Shown: one piece after another, positions 35,121 to 40,038 of the stretch
How positions within the stretch are numbered: position 1 is the stretch's first letter
Layout: the number at the start of each line of letters is the position of its first letter
DNA from: Prevotella sp.
GTDB lineage: Bacteria > Bacteroidota > Bacteroidia > Bacteroidales > Bacteroidaceae
Reading direction: 5' to 3'
Assembly (NCBI GenBank): GCA_017554105.1
Contig: JAFZIY010000017.1
Span: 310,001 to 374,000, forward strand
Length of the DNA: 64,000 nt
Position numbers and translations under genes: made by a program
Notes under the pieces: model-generated
What the model saw: the letters and a program-made list of their open reading frames with translations, nothing else
Databases searched by the model: none
What the model was told of the DNA's origin: nothing

Positions 35121-35555
35121 ATGAAAAGAGGAAAAAGAATTTGCAAGACCCTGAAGGAGATTCGGGCACAGGTGGCACGGGCTAACGACATACCGTACGA
35201 GCCCACGGAGTGCAAGCACAAGGGCGACTGCGCAGGCACTTGTCCGAAGTGTGAGGAGGAGGTGCGCTACATTGAGCACCAACTGAACATACGCCGTATG
35301 CTGGGCAAGGCGGTGGCTGTGGTGGGAGTGAGTGCCGGACTGGCTGCGCTCACCGCATGCAACGGTCCCATAAAGCACCTTGTACGTCCCGACGTAAGGG
35401 GTAAGATGCCAGCACACGACTATGTGGACTCCACGGACCAGCAGAACAACGTCAAGAAGGGAGTGAAGGTGAATCCCGACAGCATCTACGAGCTTGAGGG
35501 TGACGTCGCAGCACCGGAGCCTGACGACCAGGATCCTAAACGACCAAACGACTAA
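35121..35555 (+). CDS. Cys-module protein 1 (short tail)
   Basis: 144 residues, first of five paralogues. Residues 1-60 form the shared module: basic start (MKRGKRIC), then C31-x5-C37-x3-C41-x2-C44 (ECKHKGDCAGTCPKC) and VRYIEHQLNIRRMLGK. A hydrophobic Ala/Gly segment (62-79) ends in LTAC, a lipobox-like site at residue 80. The rest is a polar tail; its end (DPKRPND and stop) is read from repeat B. No domain is recognised in the tail. Start at 35121 matches the paralogues; an upstream ATG at 35037 is rejected since it would precede the module and the promoter. Confidence 0.75.
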   Translation: MKRGKRICKTLKEIRAQVARANDIPYEPTECKHKGDCAGTCPKCEEEVRYIEHQLNIRRMLGKAVAVVGVSAGLAALTACNGPIKHLVRPDVRGKMPAHDYVDSTDQQNNVKKGVKVNPDSIYELEGDVAAPEPDDQDPKRPND

Positions 35556-35572
35556 TCCCCTAAACGACCAAA
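35534..35572. repeat. Repeat family B between Cys-module proteins 1 and 2
   Basis: CCTAAACGACCAAACGACTAATCCCC then CTAAACGACCAAATATG: the stop of protein 1 (35553-35555) is inside and the next ATG is just beyond. Confidence 0.8.
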
Positions 35573-35573
35573 T

Positions 35574-36269
35574 ATGAAACGGGGAAAGAAGATTTGCAAA
35601 ACGCTGAAGGAGATACGCCTTCAGGTAGCGCGGGCGAACGACATACCGTACGAGCCCACAGAGTGCAAGCACAAGGGCGACTGCCTCGGCACATGTCCAA
35701 AGTGCGAGCAGGAGGTGCGCTACATAGAGCAGCAGCTCGATGTCCGCCGCATGCTGGGTAAGGCTGTGGCAGTAGCAGGAGTGGGTGCCGGACTTGCTGC
35801 GCTCACGGCATGCCATACTCACAATGTGTTGCCGCCGAACTCCCTTGCAGGCGATGTTGAGGCTACTACTGTCGTGACATCCGACGGACAGCAGAGCGAT
35901 TGCAAGGACCCCAACGCGATGGTGGTGAGGACCGACTCCCTAAACGATAATCAACTTGTGGGCGATATTGACCCCATGCCTCAGTTTCCTGGTGGAACAG
36001 AAAAGCTTTTGGAGTTCTTGAGAGAGAACACCCACTATCCCGAGGCGGCGGCGAAAGACAGCATAGAGGGACGTGTCGTCGTAAAATTCACGGTTGAGAA
36101 AGACGGTTCGATAAGCAATCCTGAGGTGGTGCGGTCCGCTCATCCATTGCTCGACGAGGAGGCCCTGCGGGTGGTGGGTATTATGCCGAAGTGGACTCCT
36201 GGCATGTATTTCGGAAAGCCTGCACGTACAAAGTCTGCTGTTCCCATAATCTTCAAAATGGACAAATAA
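35574..36269 (+). CDS. Cys-module protein 2 with TonB C-terminal domain
   Basis: 231 residues. Shared module 1-60 (C31, C37, C41, C44), hydrophobic segment 62-79 ending TAC at 80, then a linker, then a TonB C-terminal domain (about 140-231): PQFPGGTEKLLEFL, YPEAAAKDSIEGRVVVKFTV, GSISNPEVVRS, ALRVVGIMPKWTPG. The domain should face the periplasm and bind TonB-box sequences of outer-membrane proteins. No proline-rich spacer. Stop codon overlaps the radical SAM start (TAATG). Confidence 0.85.
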   Translation: MKRGKKICKTLKEIRLQVARANDIPYEPTECKHKGDCLGTCPKCEQEVRYIEQQLDVRRMLGKAVAVAGVGAGLAALTACHTHNVLPPNSLAGDVEATTVVTSDGQQSDCKDPNAMVVRTDSLNDNQLVGDIDPMPQFPGGTEKLLEFLRENTHYPEAAAKDSIEGRVVVKFTVEKDGSISNPEVVRSAHPLLDEEALRVVGIMPKWTPGMYFGKPARTKSAVPIIFKMDK

Positions 36270-36892
36270 TGCAGAGCGCACCAATCATAGGACTGGGACG
36301 GCACCGTCTCTCGGTAGACGGCAAGGGGGTTACCACGCTGGTGGCATTCCACGGGTGTACGCTGCACTGCCACTACTGCCTCAACTCCTCGTGCCTGATG
36401 CCCGGTGGTGTATGGCGTGAGGTGACCACCGAGGAACTGCTTGAGGAGGTGCGCATCGACAATCTCTATTTCGTCGCCACCGGAGGAGGAATAACGTTCG
36501 GTGGCGGCGAGCCTTGTCTAAGGAGTCTTTTCATTGAGGAGTTCGCCGGTATGATGCCACAGGAATGGAACATCACCATAGAGACATGCCTCAACGTGGA
36601 GCGACAGCATGTGGAACGCCTGCTGCCCATAGTAAGTCAGTGGATTATCGACGTGAAGGACATGAACCGCGAGATATACAAGGCATATACAGGCAAGAGC
36701 AACAAACGCACCATAGACAACCTGCGGTGGTTGCTGCGCCACGAGGGGATGGCAGAGCGCATCATATTACGACTGCCGCACATCCCTGAATACAATACCA
36801 ATGAGAATGTCAAGCAGAGCAGACGACTGCTGAAAGACATGGGCATCAAGACCTTCGACGAGTTCGATTATATAGTAAAGGCCCCCTCCTAA
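36269..36892 (+). CDS. Radical SAM protein, activase-like
   Basis: 207 residues. Radical SAM cluster C30-x3-C34-x2-C37 (HGCTLHCHYC), AdoMet motif GGGEP at 78-82, and downstream DVKDMNREIYKAYTGK and LRLPHIPEYN. Layout resembles glycyl-radical-enzyme activases such as PflA, without a ferredoxin-type insert or a SPASM domain. Its ATG shares the final base of the protein 2 stop codon, so translation is coupled. The C-terminal KAPS and stop lie in repeat A. Substrate not known; no pflB-type gene is nearby. Confidence 0.85.
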   Translation: MQSAPIIGLGRHRLSVDGKGVTTLVAFHGCTLHCHYCLNSSCLMPGGVWREVTTEELLEEVRIDNLYFVATGGGITFGGGEPCLRSLFIEEFAGMMPQEWNITIETCLNVERQHVERLLPIVSQWIIDVKDMNREIYKAYTGKSNKRTIDNLRWLLRHEGMAERIILRLPHIPEYNTNENVKQSRRLLKDMGIKTFDEFDYIVKAPS

Positions 36893-36988
36893 ACCTCCCC
36901 CGTAGGGGAGGGATGGGGTCTAAAACCATAAACTGTAAACCATAAACTGTAAACCATAAACTGTAAACCCTTCCCTTCGGGAGGGGCT
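36880..36988. repeat. Mosaic of repeats A, C (three 15-bp units) and A
   Basis: A (36880-36920, AGGCCCCCTCCTAAACC/CCCGTAGGGGAGGG), then AAACCATAAACTGTA repeated three times (36924-36969), then A (36969-36988). It separates the radical SAM gene from the CDF transporter and supplies the stop of the former. Confidence 0.85.
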
Positions 36989-36994
36989 TTCATT

Positions 36995-37885
36995 ATGAAA
37001 ACAAATCGCGAGAAAGAAATATATAAAGTAACGCTGGTCGGCAGCGGCGGTAACCTGCTGCTCGTTGTCCTGAAGTTCGTTGCCGGAGTGCTGGGGAACA
37101 GTGCTGCGATGATAGCCGATGCCGTGCACTCGCTGTCTGATTTCTTCACCGACCTCATAGTGCTCTTCTTCGTTAAGGTAAGCGCTAAGCCACAGGACGA
37201 GTCGCACGACTATGGGCACGGGAAGTTCGAGACGCTGGCAACGCTGCTTATAGGACTGGCACTGGGAGGTGCTGCCATAGGTATCATCGTCTCGGGCGGT
37301 ACGAAGTTCGCTCACTGGCTGCAGGGAGAGACATTGCAGACACCGGGAATGCTGGCATTCTGGGCGGCTATTATCTCCATCGCCGTGAAGGAGGTGCTTT
37401 ACCGATATACCGTTGCCAAGGGACGCACGCTGAAGTCGCAGGCCGTCGTTGCCAACGCATGGCACCATCGTAGCGACGCACTCTCCTCCATAGGTGCTGC
37501 CATCGGCATCGGAGGAGCGATATTGTTAGGCGAGCGATGGGCAGTGCTCGACCCTCTGGCATCCATCGTGGTGGGTGGTATGCTGATAAAGGTGGCATGG
37601 GACCTGCTGAAGGGCTGTCTTGGAGAACTAACAGACCAGTCGCTGTCGTCCGATGAGGAACGTAAGATTGAGGATATCATCCATTCATTCCCCGATGTCT
37701 CGGAGCCTCATAACCTCAGGACACGCAAGATAGGAAACCGCGTCGCCATCGAGGTGCATATCAGGATGGACGGTGACATCCCTCTCTCCATCGCCCACGA
37801 GAGGGCAACGGAAATAGAGAGGAAGATAAAGGAGTGCTTCGGGTGGGAAACGCTGGTAACGCTTCACATGGAGCCAAAGAAATGA
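36995..37885 (+). CDS. Cation diffusion facilitator (CDF) transporter
   Basis: 296 residues with six membrane segments and a cytoplasmic C-terminal domain. Metal-site motifs: DAVHSLSDFFTD (segment II) and HHRSDALSS (segment V); C-terminal HNLRTRKIGNRVAIEVHIRMDGD. Proton-coupled efflux of Zn, Fe or Mn; the metal is not certain. The ATG follows a repeat A copy. Ends at a good terminator and is convergent with the Cys-module genes. Confidence 0.92.
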   Translation: MKTNREKEIYKVTLVGSGGNLLLVVLKFVAGVLGNSAAMIADAVHSLSDFFTDLIVLFFVKVSAKPQDESHDYGHGKFETLATLLIGLALGGAAIGIIVSGGTKFAHWLQGETLQTPGMLAFWAAIISIAVKEVLYRYTVAKGRTLKSQAVVANAWHHRSDALSSIGAAIGIGGAILLGERWAVLDPLASIVVGGMLIKVAWDLLKGCLGELTDQSLSSDEERKIEDIIHSFPDVSEPHNLRTRKIGNRVAIEVHIRMDGDIPLSIAHERATEIERKIKECFGWETLVTLHMEPKK

Positions 37886-37914
37886 AAAGGCCGGATATAT
37901 CCGACCTTTTTTTT
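37885..37914. terminator. Terminator between CDF transporter and Cys-module protein 3
   Basis: AAAAGGCCGGATA / TATCCGACCTTTT stem with one mismatch, then a T tract. Confidence 0.85.
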
Positions 37915-37927
37915 GTAACTATGCTTA

Positions 37928-38668
37928 TTATCGTTTGAAAGATACGGGTATGGTGTACTTAACCCTGACTGGCTTGCCGTCTTGCTCTCCAGGTATCCAC
38001 TTAGGCATAATGCTTACTACACGCAGAGCCTCCTTGTCATACAGTGGATGAACAGATTTTACTACCTTCGGGTCGGTTATGGAACCATCCTTCTCGACTA
38101 CGAAAGATACGATAACACGTCCCATGACGCACGTTTGGTCCATTTCCTCAGTATAGTTAATATTGTCATGAATAAACTCCATAAGTTTCTGTTGCCCTCC
38201 AGGGAACGAGGGCAGATGCTCTGCCACGTCACCAAAGATCATATTCTCCTTAATGGTATCAGTCGCAACCACCATTGATTTAGGCTCCTTGCAGTCGCTG
38301 CTCTGTCCGTCGGGGGTGATGTCTGGTGCTGGTGGCATTCCCTCAGGCAACTGATGCTCCTCGGGGTCGGGGTTGGTTGCTACTACATCGCCCTCAAGGA
38401 CATTGGTCTGCACCGTCCTATGTGTATGGCATGCGGTAAGCGCGGCAAGTCCGGCACTCACGCCAGCCACTGCCACCGCCTTTCCCAGCATGCGGCGTAT
38501 ATCGAGTTGGTGCTCGATATAGCGCACTTCCTGCTCACACTTGGGGCAGGTGCCGAGGCAGTCGCCTTTGTGCTTGCATTCCGTGGGCTCGTAAGGAATA
38601 TCATTCGACCGCGCTACTTGCAGGCGTATTTCCTTCAGTGTCTTGCAAATTTTCTTTCCTCGTTTCAT
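37928..38668 (-). CDS. Cys-module protein 3 with TonB C-terminal domain
   Basis: 246 residues, closest paralogue of protein 2. Module 1-60 with C31, C37, C41, C44; hydrophobic segment ending LTACHTHR; TonB C-terminal domain ~150-246 (PSFPGGQQKLMEFI, GSITDPKVVKSVHPL, ALRVVSIMPKWIPG). Last gene of a minus-strand operon with proteins 4 and 5, convergent with the CDF gene. Confidence 0.85.
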   Translation of the reverse strand: MKRGKKICKTLKEIRLQVARSNDIPYEPTECKHKGDCLGTCPKCEQEVRYIEHQLDIRRMLGKAVAVAGVSAGLAALTACHTHRTVQTNVLEGDVVATNPDPEEHQLPEGMPPAPDITPDGQSSDCKEPKSMVVATDTIKENMIFGDVAEHLPSFPGGQQKLMEFIHDNINYTEEMDQTCVMGRVIVSFVVEKDGSITDPKVVKSVHPLYDKEALRVVSIMPKWIPGEQDGKPVRVKYTIPVSFKR

Positions 38669-38718
38669 ATTTGGTTGTTTGGAGGGGTGGTCGTTTAGTC
38701 GTTTGGGAGATTGGAACT
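38669..38718. repeat. Repeat family B between Cys-module proteins 3 and 4
   Basis: TTGGTTGTTTGGAGGGGTGG-TCGTTTAGTCGTTTGGG. Confidence 0.75.
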
Positions 38719-38721
38719 CAA

Positions 38722-39378
38722 TTATCTTCCGTGTCCGTAGACGTCATCCCTGTAATATCTGCTATCTACTGCTCCCACAACAACAACTTCGCCCATAAGG
38801 CGATCATCCTCCTTCATGACTACCTCAACTACCTGCTGTCGCTGCGAAGCGTTAAACGAGGATGTCTTATATCCGACATACGCTACGTCCAAAGGACAGC
38901 CTTCAGGAACCTCAATGGCGAACATGCCATTTATGTCGCTGACCTCTCCTTTCTTGGTGCCCTTGCGAAGGATTGTAGCACCTATAATAGCCTCTCCTGT
39001 TTCATCGATAACTCGTCCGCGAATCACTGTTCCCTGCTCGCCTTCGTTGAGCAGACTCTTTACCTTCAACGTCTGCAGTGCGGAGATTACGGTGCTGTCC
39101 TTAGGTACGGTGACGGTGTTCTGTGCAAAAGCCTCTATCGGCTGCGCTGCCATGCTCACGCCCATTGCCACGCCTGCCACAGTGGCTACCTTGCCCATTA
39201 TGCGACGGACATTCAACTGGTGCTCTATGTAGCGCACCTCCTCCTCGCACTTAGGGCATGTGCCGAGGCAGTCGCCCTTGTGCTTGCACTCCGTCGGCTC
39301 GTATGGTATATCGTTCGCCCGCGCCACCTGCAAGCGGATATCCTTTAGCGTCTGACAAATCTTCTTTCCTCTTTTCAT
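38722..39378 (-). CDS. Cys-module protein 4 with SusC-type N-terminal-extension-like domain and TonB-box-like motif
   Basis: 218 residues. Module 1-60 as in the others; hydrophobic segment (62-79) followed by EAFAQ, a signal-peptidase I-like AxA site rather than a lipobox. Then a CarboxypepD-regulatory-like domain (~110-185: VIRGRVIDETGEAIIGATI, INGMFAIEVPEGCPLDVAYVGYKT) and MGEVVVVGAVDS, which matches the EVVVVG TonB-box region of SusC receptors, without any barrel. Ends DDVYGHGR. Confidence 0.8.
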   Translation of the reverse strand: MKRGKKICQTLKDIRLQVARANDIPYEPTECKHKGDCLGTCPKCEEEVRYIEHQLNVRRIMGKVATVAGVAMGVSMAAQPIEAFAQNTVTVPKDSTVISALQTLKVKSLLNEGEQGTVIRGRVIDETGEAIIGATILRKGTKKGEVSDINGMFAIEVPEGCPLDVAYVGYKTSSFNASQRQQVVEVVMKEDDRLMGEVVVVGAVDSRYYRDDVYGHGR

Positions 39379-39396
39379 ACCTTATTATGCTCTAAA

Positions 39397-40038
39397 TTAG
39401 AAACCATGTCCATATACATCGTCACTCTGTACACGTCCTTTTATTGGCACCACATAGCCCTGAACATCTTCATTAAGGACCATCTCAATGACTTGCAATT
39501 GCTCTGATGCTTCAAACAAGAAAGGAATATATCCTACATAGTTTATTTGCAAAGGACAGCCTTCAGGAACTTCTACCGCGAACAGACCATTCTGGTCGGT
39601 AATAGCCCATTTATTGATATCCTTGCGACCGACTATCGCACCTATTATCCCGATGCTATCGCTATCTATTACACGGCCTCGCACTACTATTCCCTTCTCG
39701 CCATCTTTGAGCAAGCTCTCCACCTTCAACGTCTGAAGTGCGGAGATTACGGTGCTGTCCTTGGGTGCCGTGACGGTGTTCTGTGCCATTGCCTCCATCG
39801 GCTGTGCTGCCAAACTGACTCCCATTGCCATGCCAGCCACAGCAGCAGCCTTGCCGAGCATGCGACGGATGTTCAGTTGATGCTCTATATAGCGCACCTC
39901 CTGCTCACACTTAGGGCATGTTCCTAGGCAGTCGCCCTTGTGTTTGCATTCCGTCGGCTCATATGGTATATCATTCGCCCGTGCCACTTGCAGGCGGATA
40001 TCCTTCAGTGTCTGACAAATTTTCTTTCCCCGTTTCAT
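39397..40038 (-). CDS. Cys-module protein 5 with SusC-type N-terminal-extension-like domain
   Basis: 213 residues, paralogue of protein 4 (module 1-60, EAMAQ cleavage-like site). The regulatory-like domain is present (VVRGRVIDSDSIGIIGAIV, VEVPEGCPLQINYVGYIP) but the TonB-box-like stretch is eroded (GYVVPIKGRV); the last residues DDVYGHGF match protein 4. First gene of the operon 5-4-3; 18 bases before protein 4. Confidence 0.8.
   Translation of the reverse strand: MKRGKKICQTLKDIRLQVARANDIPYEPTECKHKGDCLGTCPKCEQEVRYIEHQLNIRRMLGKAAAVAGMAMGVSLAAQPMEAMAQNTVTAPKDSTVISALQTLKVESLLKDGEKGIVVRGRVIDSDSIGIIGAIVGRKDINKWAITDQNGLFAVEVPEGCPLQINYVGYIPFLFEASEQLQVIEMVLNEDVQGYVVPIKGRVQSDDVYGHGF

Follow-up and report, generated by a model that had tools for sequence, protein, structure and literature searches.

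The stretch of DNA analyzed here, called the window throughout, consists of 64,000 nucleotides from Prevotella sp. (GCA_017554105.1, contig JAFZIY010000017.1, positions 310,001 to 374,000 of the forward strand). It encodes five paralogous proteins (P1–P5) that share a cysteine-rich N-terminal segment, the module, followed by a signal-peptide-like segment and different C-terminal ends. A first-pass annotation made from the letters had described these paralogues, and all five open reading frames (ORFs) are present where it placed them. It overlooked a small radical-SAM (S-adenosylmethionine) enzyme encoded in the same window, whose ATG overlaps the TAA of P2. The genes, and the module copies as delimited by sequence identity, are as follows.

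35121..35555, plus strand: P1, module, lipobox segment and short acidic tail
35574..36269, plus strand: P2, module, lipobox segment and TonB_C
36269..36892, plus strand: radical-SAM enzyme resembling pyruvate formate-lyase (PFL) activase, with CX3CX2C, GGGEP and DxK present
37928..38668, minus strand: P3, module, lipobox segment and TonB_C
38722..39378, minus strand: P4, module, AxA-type signal segment and CarboxypepD_reg/SusC N-terminal domain
39397..40038, minus strand: P5, module, AxA-type signal segment and SusC-N-terminal-like domain
35121..35306, plus strand: module copy 1, residues 1–62
35574..35759, plus strand: module copy 2
38483..38668, minus strand: module copy 3
39193..39378, minus strand: module copy 4
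39853..40038, minus strand: module copy 5

Residues 1–62 of P2–P5 are 87–90% identical to those of P1. The codon comparison in the first-pass annotation is exact, with 22 synonymous and 2 non-synonymous differing codons between P2 and P5 over codons 1–52, and its claim of selection is borne out: the window module is under strong purifying selection, with ratios of non-synonymous to synonymous substitution rates (dN/dS) of 0.006–0.098 across ten pairs of window copies and two codon ranges. Pfam and NCBIfam searches agree with the two TonB, two SusC-like N-terminal and one short end read earlier. TonB_C matches two proteins (7.9e-20 and 3.8e-16), CarboxypepD_reg-like families match two others (7.5e-17, and 3e-05, the second under the Pfam cutoff), and P4 and P5 also match the N-terminal part of the SusC model TIGR04056 (8.5e-25 and 8.6e-12, both under the whole-protein cutoff). 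The C-terminal part of P1 has no domain match in either database. The same search of the five proteins gave no Pfam or NCBIfam model for the module itself. For P1–P3 the hydrophobic Ala/Gly segment after the module ends in a lipobox, for P4 and P5 in an AxA-type site, in line with the earlier prediction of cleavage by signal peptidase II in three proteins and signal peptidase I in two. A profile search (E ≤ 1) found no sixth module copy in the window's genome. The word AAACGACTAA occurs five times in the window (22573, 35546, 38695, 40066 and 40151; 0.09 expected); four of the five occurrences adjoin module genes, and two lie inside short degenerate 8-base tandem repeats.

The module family

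Profile and peptide-pattern searches yielded a sample of 135 module proteins (142 before truncated duplicates were removed). Conservation and domain counts refer to 131 of them, and an earlier alignment held 109. The sample was gathered partly with the patterns MKRGK[KR]IC and ECKHKGD and is therefore biased at those positions; C8 is also kept in the profile-found sequences of the same alignment and is invariant in 109 of 109 and 131 of 131 proteins. The module thus has five conserved cysteines and not the four first described; C31, C41 and C44 are invariant like C8, and at least 90% of the 131 proteins retain C37. The complete set of never-varying positions is G4, C8, L11, R15, A19, N22, I24, C31, G39, C41 and C44. 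The cysteines are therefore conserved across the family, and the free variation among orthologues that the first-pass annotation had named as evidence against its view was not found. H33, also called invariant, is so in the window's five copies but not in the family, where position 33 is H in 91, Y in 14 and F in 4 of 109 proteins. A twin-arginine translocation signal, prompted by RRMLGK in P1–P3, was ruled out, given that the second arginine is kept in only 59 of the 109.

Profile searches for C-terminal partners, the check proposed earlier, showed that the module is joined to several domains: TonB_C in 61 of the 131 proteins, CarbopepD_reg_2 in 15, CarboxypepD_reg in 11, OmpA in 4 and three other families in one each, with 37–70 proteins matching no C-terminal family (a range, as one protein may have multiple matches). 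Simple patterns assign a lipobox-like site to 86 proteins and an AxA-type site to 25 others, leaving 20 with neither; a hydrophobic run of 11 residues is missing from six, five of which are among the 20 without a site. In one genome (G822; loci L129, L131, L132 and L134) there are seven module matches, one with an in-frame TGA, and by eye several of these modules head OmpA-type proteins and the one at L129 another C-terminal kind.

The distribution of the module is patchy. It was found in 15 of 60 relatives, all 15 within the 36 genomes of the same genus, in 15 of 393 genomes of the order and in 2 of 395 of the phylum. In the phylum of G818, a genome labelled Firmicutes, it was found in 2 of 398 genomes, G818 itself and G1096; the Firmicutes labels are the record titles of metagenome-assembled genomes (MAGs).

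A structural model of the module has two helices (residues 3–21 and 42–60) around a cysteine loop, at moderate confidence (predicted local distance difference test, pLDDT, 73.9). Searching the Protein Data Bank (PDB) sequences with the module profile gave just five matches with E of 0.39–0.99, for example LysW and anti-TRAP. Of the 29 Pfam families matched by 84 modules, the 25 shown include weak matches to zinc-ribbon families, DUF7129 and Fer4, the best of those shown at 0.004. The cytoplasmic zinc or iron-sulfur site proposed in the first-pass annotation is plausible. The five cysteines could be ligands of zinc or of an auxiliary Fe-S cluster, a choice on which the module model decides nothing.

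A radical-SAM enzyme that accompanies the module

The window enzyme is 207 residues long and carries the invariant elements C30-x3-C34-x2-C37 (cluster cysteines compared in 25 sequences), GGGEP and D128-x-K130. The DxK pair aligns by count with residues 129 and 131 of the PFL activating enzyme (PFL-AE), and we take D129 and K131 to be functional residues there. Among solved structures, the closest in sequence are PFL activating enzymes (3e-25), and the enzyme model (pLDDT 92.6) has a template modeling (TM) score of 0.84 to 3cb8, a PFL activase with peptide substrate, and of 0.82–0.84 over 3c8f and 3cb8. The best NCBIfam subfamily is TIGR02494, glycyl-radical enzyme activating protein (1.2e-35), at 123.2 bits against a cutoff of 174.35; the enzyme scores under every NCBIfam cutoff listed, and far under those of the equivalog models listed. 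We searched 13 carriers, chosen by us among the positive genomes, for the glycyl-radical domain PF01228 (E ≤ 0.001). It was clear in three (G740, G820 and G1096), weak at 21.5–26.2 bits in five (G562, G658, G798, G661 and G454) and unmatched in five (G000, G764, G715, G627 and G818), the window's genome included. In several carriers the canonical target of an activase is thus not found, the ribonucleotide-reductase type not having been searched as such.

Module and enzyme were surveyed in the same genome draws, with the enzyme profile (A4) at E ≤ 1e-40 and the module profiles at 0.001 (A2) and 1e-4 (A3). Module-positive and enzyme-positive genomes are the identical 15 of 60 among the relatives and the identical 15 of 393 in the order. 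Pooled, the two surveys give 29 distinct positive genomes and no discordant one, each with one enzyme and one to five modules; the draws overlap, so their negatives are not to be summed. A further 26 module loci, all but one without an enzyme in the fetched stretch, led to 24 genomes, and the enzyme was found in 23 of them. The 26 loci are 25 of the 34 enzyme-less loci among L033–L090 plus the enzyme-bearing L068; the nine other enzyme-less loci bear isolate names already represented there, and two of the 24 genomes repeat survey genomes (the enzymes of G1222 and G1239 are identical to those of G005 and G764). In the phylum of G818, the enzyme profile matched one of 239 genomes, G818 itself, in a draw smaller than the 398 used for the module and made with no genome-by-genome comparison of co-occurrence.

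Two explanations that leave the enzyme out of the matter fit these data poorly. The first holds that it is an ordinary activase of a glycyl-radical enzyme and a chance neighbor of the module genes. TIGR02494 as best subfamily speaks for this, as do the eight of 13 carriers with a PF01228 match. Set against the score below the TIGR02494 cutoff, the five carriers in which PF01228 is unmatched and the co-occurrence with the module in 29 of 29 genomes, we find it scarcely credible. The second takes the module as an unusual long signal peptide, as the first-pass annotation had considered, or as a zinc anti-sigma-like (ZAS) domain, in either case unlinked to the enzyme. A lipobox-like or AxA-type site does follow in 111 of the 131 proteins, and we regard H33-x3-C37 and C41-x2-C44 as reminiscent of ZAS motifs. 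The missing hydrophobic run in six of 131, the exact co-occurrence with the enzyme and the absence of an anti-sigma family from the 25 of 29 matched Pfam families shown for the 84 modules make this explanation very improbable. A targeting segment is an insufficient description because the module is tied to the enzyme, also occurs without a signal segment and has tails enriched in a motif. Overall, the earlier observation is confirmed and its interpretation partly supported.

Gene order ties module and enzyme together as well. After removal of two duplicates from 52, there are 50 distinct enzyme loci, of which three are fusions and 36 have a module gene on the same strand, within 134 bp in 35 of the 36. 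In the fusions (G562, G798 and G658) a single polypeptide holds both, with the radical-SAM protein ending in the module. The module is an 88-residue ORF adjoining the radical-SAM protein in G661 (L140), and in G1096 (L141:6992-9802) it forms the C-terminal part of a 405-residue protein of the tubulin/FtsZ family.

Several observations concern the surroundings of these genes. In the window, a perfect 14-base tandem repeat of AAACCATAAACTGT (36923–36969, 3.4 copies) lies between the enzyme and a cation-efflux gene of the zinc transporter type. The tubulin/FtsZ-module gene of G1096 is followed by the enzyme, a 64-residue ORF and a DUF6994 protein. In G661 (L140:6847-13878) a same-strand row holds an ORF resembling a helix-turn-helix protein by eye, DUF1848, a 1250-residue Sel1/BspA leucine-rich-repeat protein, the enzyme, the module and a DUF3800 protein that matches the PADLOC candidate PDC-S51 (4.7e-102), so this row might be a defense-type use of the enzyme-module pair. 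For the window enzyme, a defense link is disfavored, since PADLOC gives only a weak viperin match (3.6e-4). On the plasmid NZ_CP137558.1 of Segatella copri HDE06 (L209:6133-8621), two module-TonB proteins and the enzyme lie near mobC and a relaxase gene; these copies bear only the annotations 'energy transducer TonB' and 'radical SAM protein', and PLSDB types the plasmid as non-mobilizable. The pair may have moved horizontally, which the patchy distribution and the plasmid fit without proving it.

Glycine-centered motifs in the tails

The tails of the module proteins vary in length and make-up yet repeat a short element, as in LEGDV, LMGDV, LAGEP, VRGKM, NGLIE and TGILP, whose common feature is a glycine with, in most cases, a hydrophobic residue two positions earlier. 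We defined a tight form, [LMIV]xG[DE][VIA], and a loose form, Phi-x-G-x-[V/I/L/M/P]. The window holds the following occurrences.

35394..35408, plus strand: VRGKM, loose form, P1 tail
35493..35507, plus strand: LEGDV, P1 tail
35844..35858, plus strand: LAGDV, P2 linker
35955..35969, plus strand: LVGDI, P2 linker before TonB_C
38384..38398, minus strand: LEGDV, P3 linker
38225..38239, minus strand: IFGDV, P3 linker before TonB_C
38785..38799, minus strand: LMGEV, P4, which could be a TonB-box-like SusC segment

In the tails of 127 of 132 closed proteins (five tails shorter than 15 residues were excluded), the tight motif occurs 94 times, compared with a mean of 9.9 and a maximum of 20 in shuffles. 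Per 1,000 residues it occurs 13.2 times in 42 short tails versus 0.45 times in 321 other ORFs of the same loci, and 0.41 times in 25 lipoprotein-like ORFs. The loose motif is present in 37 of 40 short tails (shuffles, mean 12.0). Expectation maximization without a preset motif, run on 40 of the 42 short tails, converged on [QE]-L-[ME]-G-[DE]-V with a log-likelihood of 298 (25 starts), compared with 97–109 for five shuffled sets (8 starts each). Because some of the tails share ancestry, these statistics overstate the significance.

The module-free peptides of the fusion genomes are independent carriers of the motif and are more telling, though thinner, evidence. In each of the three, the next ORF after the enzyme-module gene (L137:8210-8422, L138:8117-8338 and L139:7698-7925) encodes an acidic peptide of 71–76 residues without a module and with one tight motif, LIGDI, LVGDI and LVGDI, respectively. 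Loose motifs are IEGIL and LEGLI in L137, TTGLI in L138 and TTGIL in L139, and by eye there are further CTGLI/CTGLL in L138 and L139. The small ORFs of L137 and L138 have no Pfam match.

Bacteroidota possess a surface-export signal, but reading LxGDV as that signal or as a TonB box is disfavored, given that the motif is also found in Firmicutes-labelled members and in the module-free peptides. A thioether, as in sactipeptides, was set aside since by eye cysteines are not regular beside the motif.

A possible radical modification of exported proteins

We think that the small radical-SAM enzyme is probably dedicated to proteins that carry the module: the module would serve as its recognition or partner domain, and these proteins would be its substrates. 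The observed basis is the conservation of the module, its co-occurrence and gene linkage with the enzyme, the fusions, the motif enrichment and the likeness of the enzyme to the PFL-activase fold; from sequence we infer a modification of the tail, an attack at the glycine C-alpha, a metal in the module (auxiliary Fe-S or zinc) and an order of events. The module sits either on the enzyme, with the motif on a separate peptide, or on the motif protein, with the enzyme separate. The economical reading of this is the module as docking or partner domain and the glycine motif as the site of attack. Relatives of the enzyme abstract hydrogen from a backbone glycine in a substrate loop. A module carried by the substrate would then act as a tag.

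In the cytoplasm, the module at the N-terminus of a nascent protein would dock on the enzyme, which would then act on glycine-centered motifs, typically LEGDV, in the flexible tail or linker. The signal segment directly after the module would next drive export. Lying ahead of that segment, the module would remain cytoplasmic and be lost after export, with signal peptidase II (lipobox) or I removing it much like a leader peptide. The end product would be a modified envelope protein, whether TonB-like, SusC-N-terminal-like, OmpA-like or a short acidic lipoprotein, and the range of carriers (TonB, SusC-like, OmpA and short lipoproteins) suggests the cell envelope as the place of action. In a bolder form, which we hold to be possible but doubtful, a relative of the activases has become a general modifier of exported proteins; its substrates would carry its auxiliary Fe-S or zinc domain as a self-removing, portable tag before the signal peptide, and attack at the glycine C-alpha in LxG[DE]V would yield glycine-modified TonB, OmpA and lipoproteins (cross-linked, cleaved or even carrying a radical) in anaerobes whose labels span two phyla.

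Several points weigh against a tag-directed tail modification. The modification is deduced from sequence and no product has been seen; the module model has no PDB fold match at E ≤ 0.001, and the Pfam families shown for the 84 modules include no detectable likeness to SPASM or to the recognition element (RRE) of ribosomally synthesized and post-translationally modified peptides (RiPPs). One genome, G1231, has a module but no enzyme match; it is a MAG. A module gene is missing within about 1.5 kb at ten of the 50 enzyme loci, and at another it lies on the opposite strand. The tight motif is present in only 71 of 127 tails, P5 and the tubulin/FtsZ-like protein have none (the latter has loose forms only, ITGIL, NYGEI and IIGKV), and the loose motif is only 5.6-fold above background (20.6 versus 3.7 per 1,000 residues). 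In G661 the enzyme adjoins a tail-less module, with no motif peptide flagged nearby.

In a different assignment of roles, the enzyme would act on the module itself, perhaps at conserved cysteines or glycines; the module, possibly metal-binding, would be the product and the tail motif a separate binding motif. The module is indeed far more conserved than the tails and has several conserved glycines besides its five cysteines, it stands without a tail beside the enzyme in L140, and some module proteins lack the tight motif. We nevertheless judge this unlikely, given that three genomes have the module within the enzyme and a module-free motif peptide adjoining it, and that the motif recurs across otherwise different tails. 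It is quite improbable that the module is instead a domain of the ferredoxin or auxiliary Fe-S type whose sole task is to supply the enzyme with electrons, the envelope fusion bringing the enzyme to the membrane and not the substrate to the enzyme. Auxiliary-cluster (SPASM/twitch) domains sit at the C-terminus of other radical-SAM enzymes, and the five cysteines and the natural fusion at the enzyme's C-terminus would agree with this role; it does not account for surveyed genomes having a single enzyme and as many as five module genes, and it leaves the motif enrichment in the same proteins unexplained.

A tag-directed modification can be compared with several known systems. With PFL-AE and other activases the enzyme shares the fold, the CX3CX2C element and the DxK pair, and with PFL-AE also a putative target centered on a glycine with a hydrophobic residue two positions before, the PFL site being V-S-G-Y. 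It differs in its length (207 versus 245 residues), its scores below the NCBIfam cutoffs, its linkage to a cysteine-rich module and the five of 13 tested carriers in which a PF01228 protein was not found. Radical-SAM/SPASM maturases of RiPPs resemble the fusion genomes, where a radical-SAM enzyme with a cysteine-rich C-terminal domain stands beside a small ORF, its putative substrate; here, however, the cysteine domain is mostly on the putative substrates, and SPASM is unmatched both in the one fusion protein searched (L138, E ≤ 0.01) and in the families shown for the 84 modules. By eye, neither an exporter nor a peptidase was noticed beside the enzyme-module loci. The C-terminal parts of the module proteins match the TonB, SusC-N-terminal (CarboxypepD_reg) and OmpA families of Bacteroidota, but in the window proteins the family match starts well past the module.

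Two features by which RiPP systems are recognized were found: a modifying enzyme next to the precursor, the enzyme being either fused to a module or accompanied by a module gene of the same orientation in 39 of 50 loci, and a conserved leader-like recognition part joined to a variable part with a recurrent motif. Bufferins and other MNIO-modified precursors are Sec-exported modified proteins, some of them predicted lipoproteins; PMC12452194 calls signal peptides on precursors highly unusual and mentions preliminary results that place the signal peptide within the recognition sequence. Ours would resemble these systems in being RiPP-like and working with Sec-exported precursors; they use an MNIO enzyme, a DUF2063/RRE partner and cysteine-derived heterocycles, where ours would use a radical-SAM enzyme, a substrate-borne cysteine module and a glycine motif. 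An MNIO enzyme was not noticed, though no search aimed at MNIO was made. We found no described system of this kind in the open-licence PMC literature, absence from which is weak evidence.

A module that travels with one radical enzyme suggests a so far undescribed chemical modification of exported proteins. As a form of radical-SAM peptide modification, which to our knowledge has been studied mostly for small natural products and radical enzymes, the system would be categorically newer in its substrate-borne partner domain and its glycine-directed modification of envelope proteins. In the window's genome, one enzyme appears to serve up to five functionally different envelope proteins through a built-in N-terminal tag. 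If true, this would reveal a new system for modifying proteins in gut and rumen bacteria, it would give a function to proteins now annotated merely as 'energy transducer TonB', and it would provide a removable tag that could steer a radical enzyme to other proteins.

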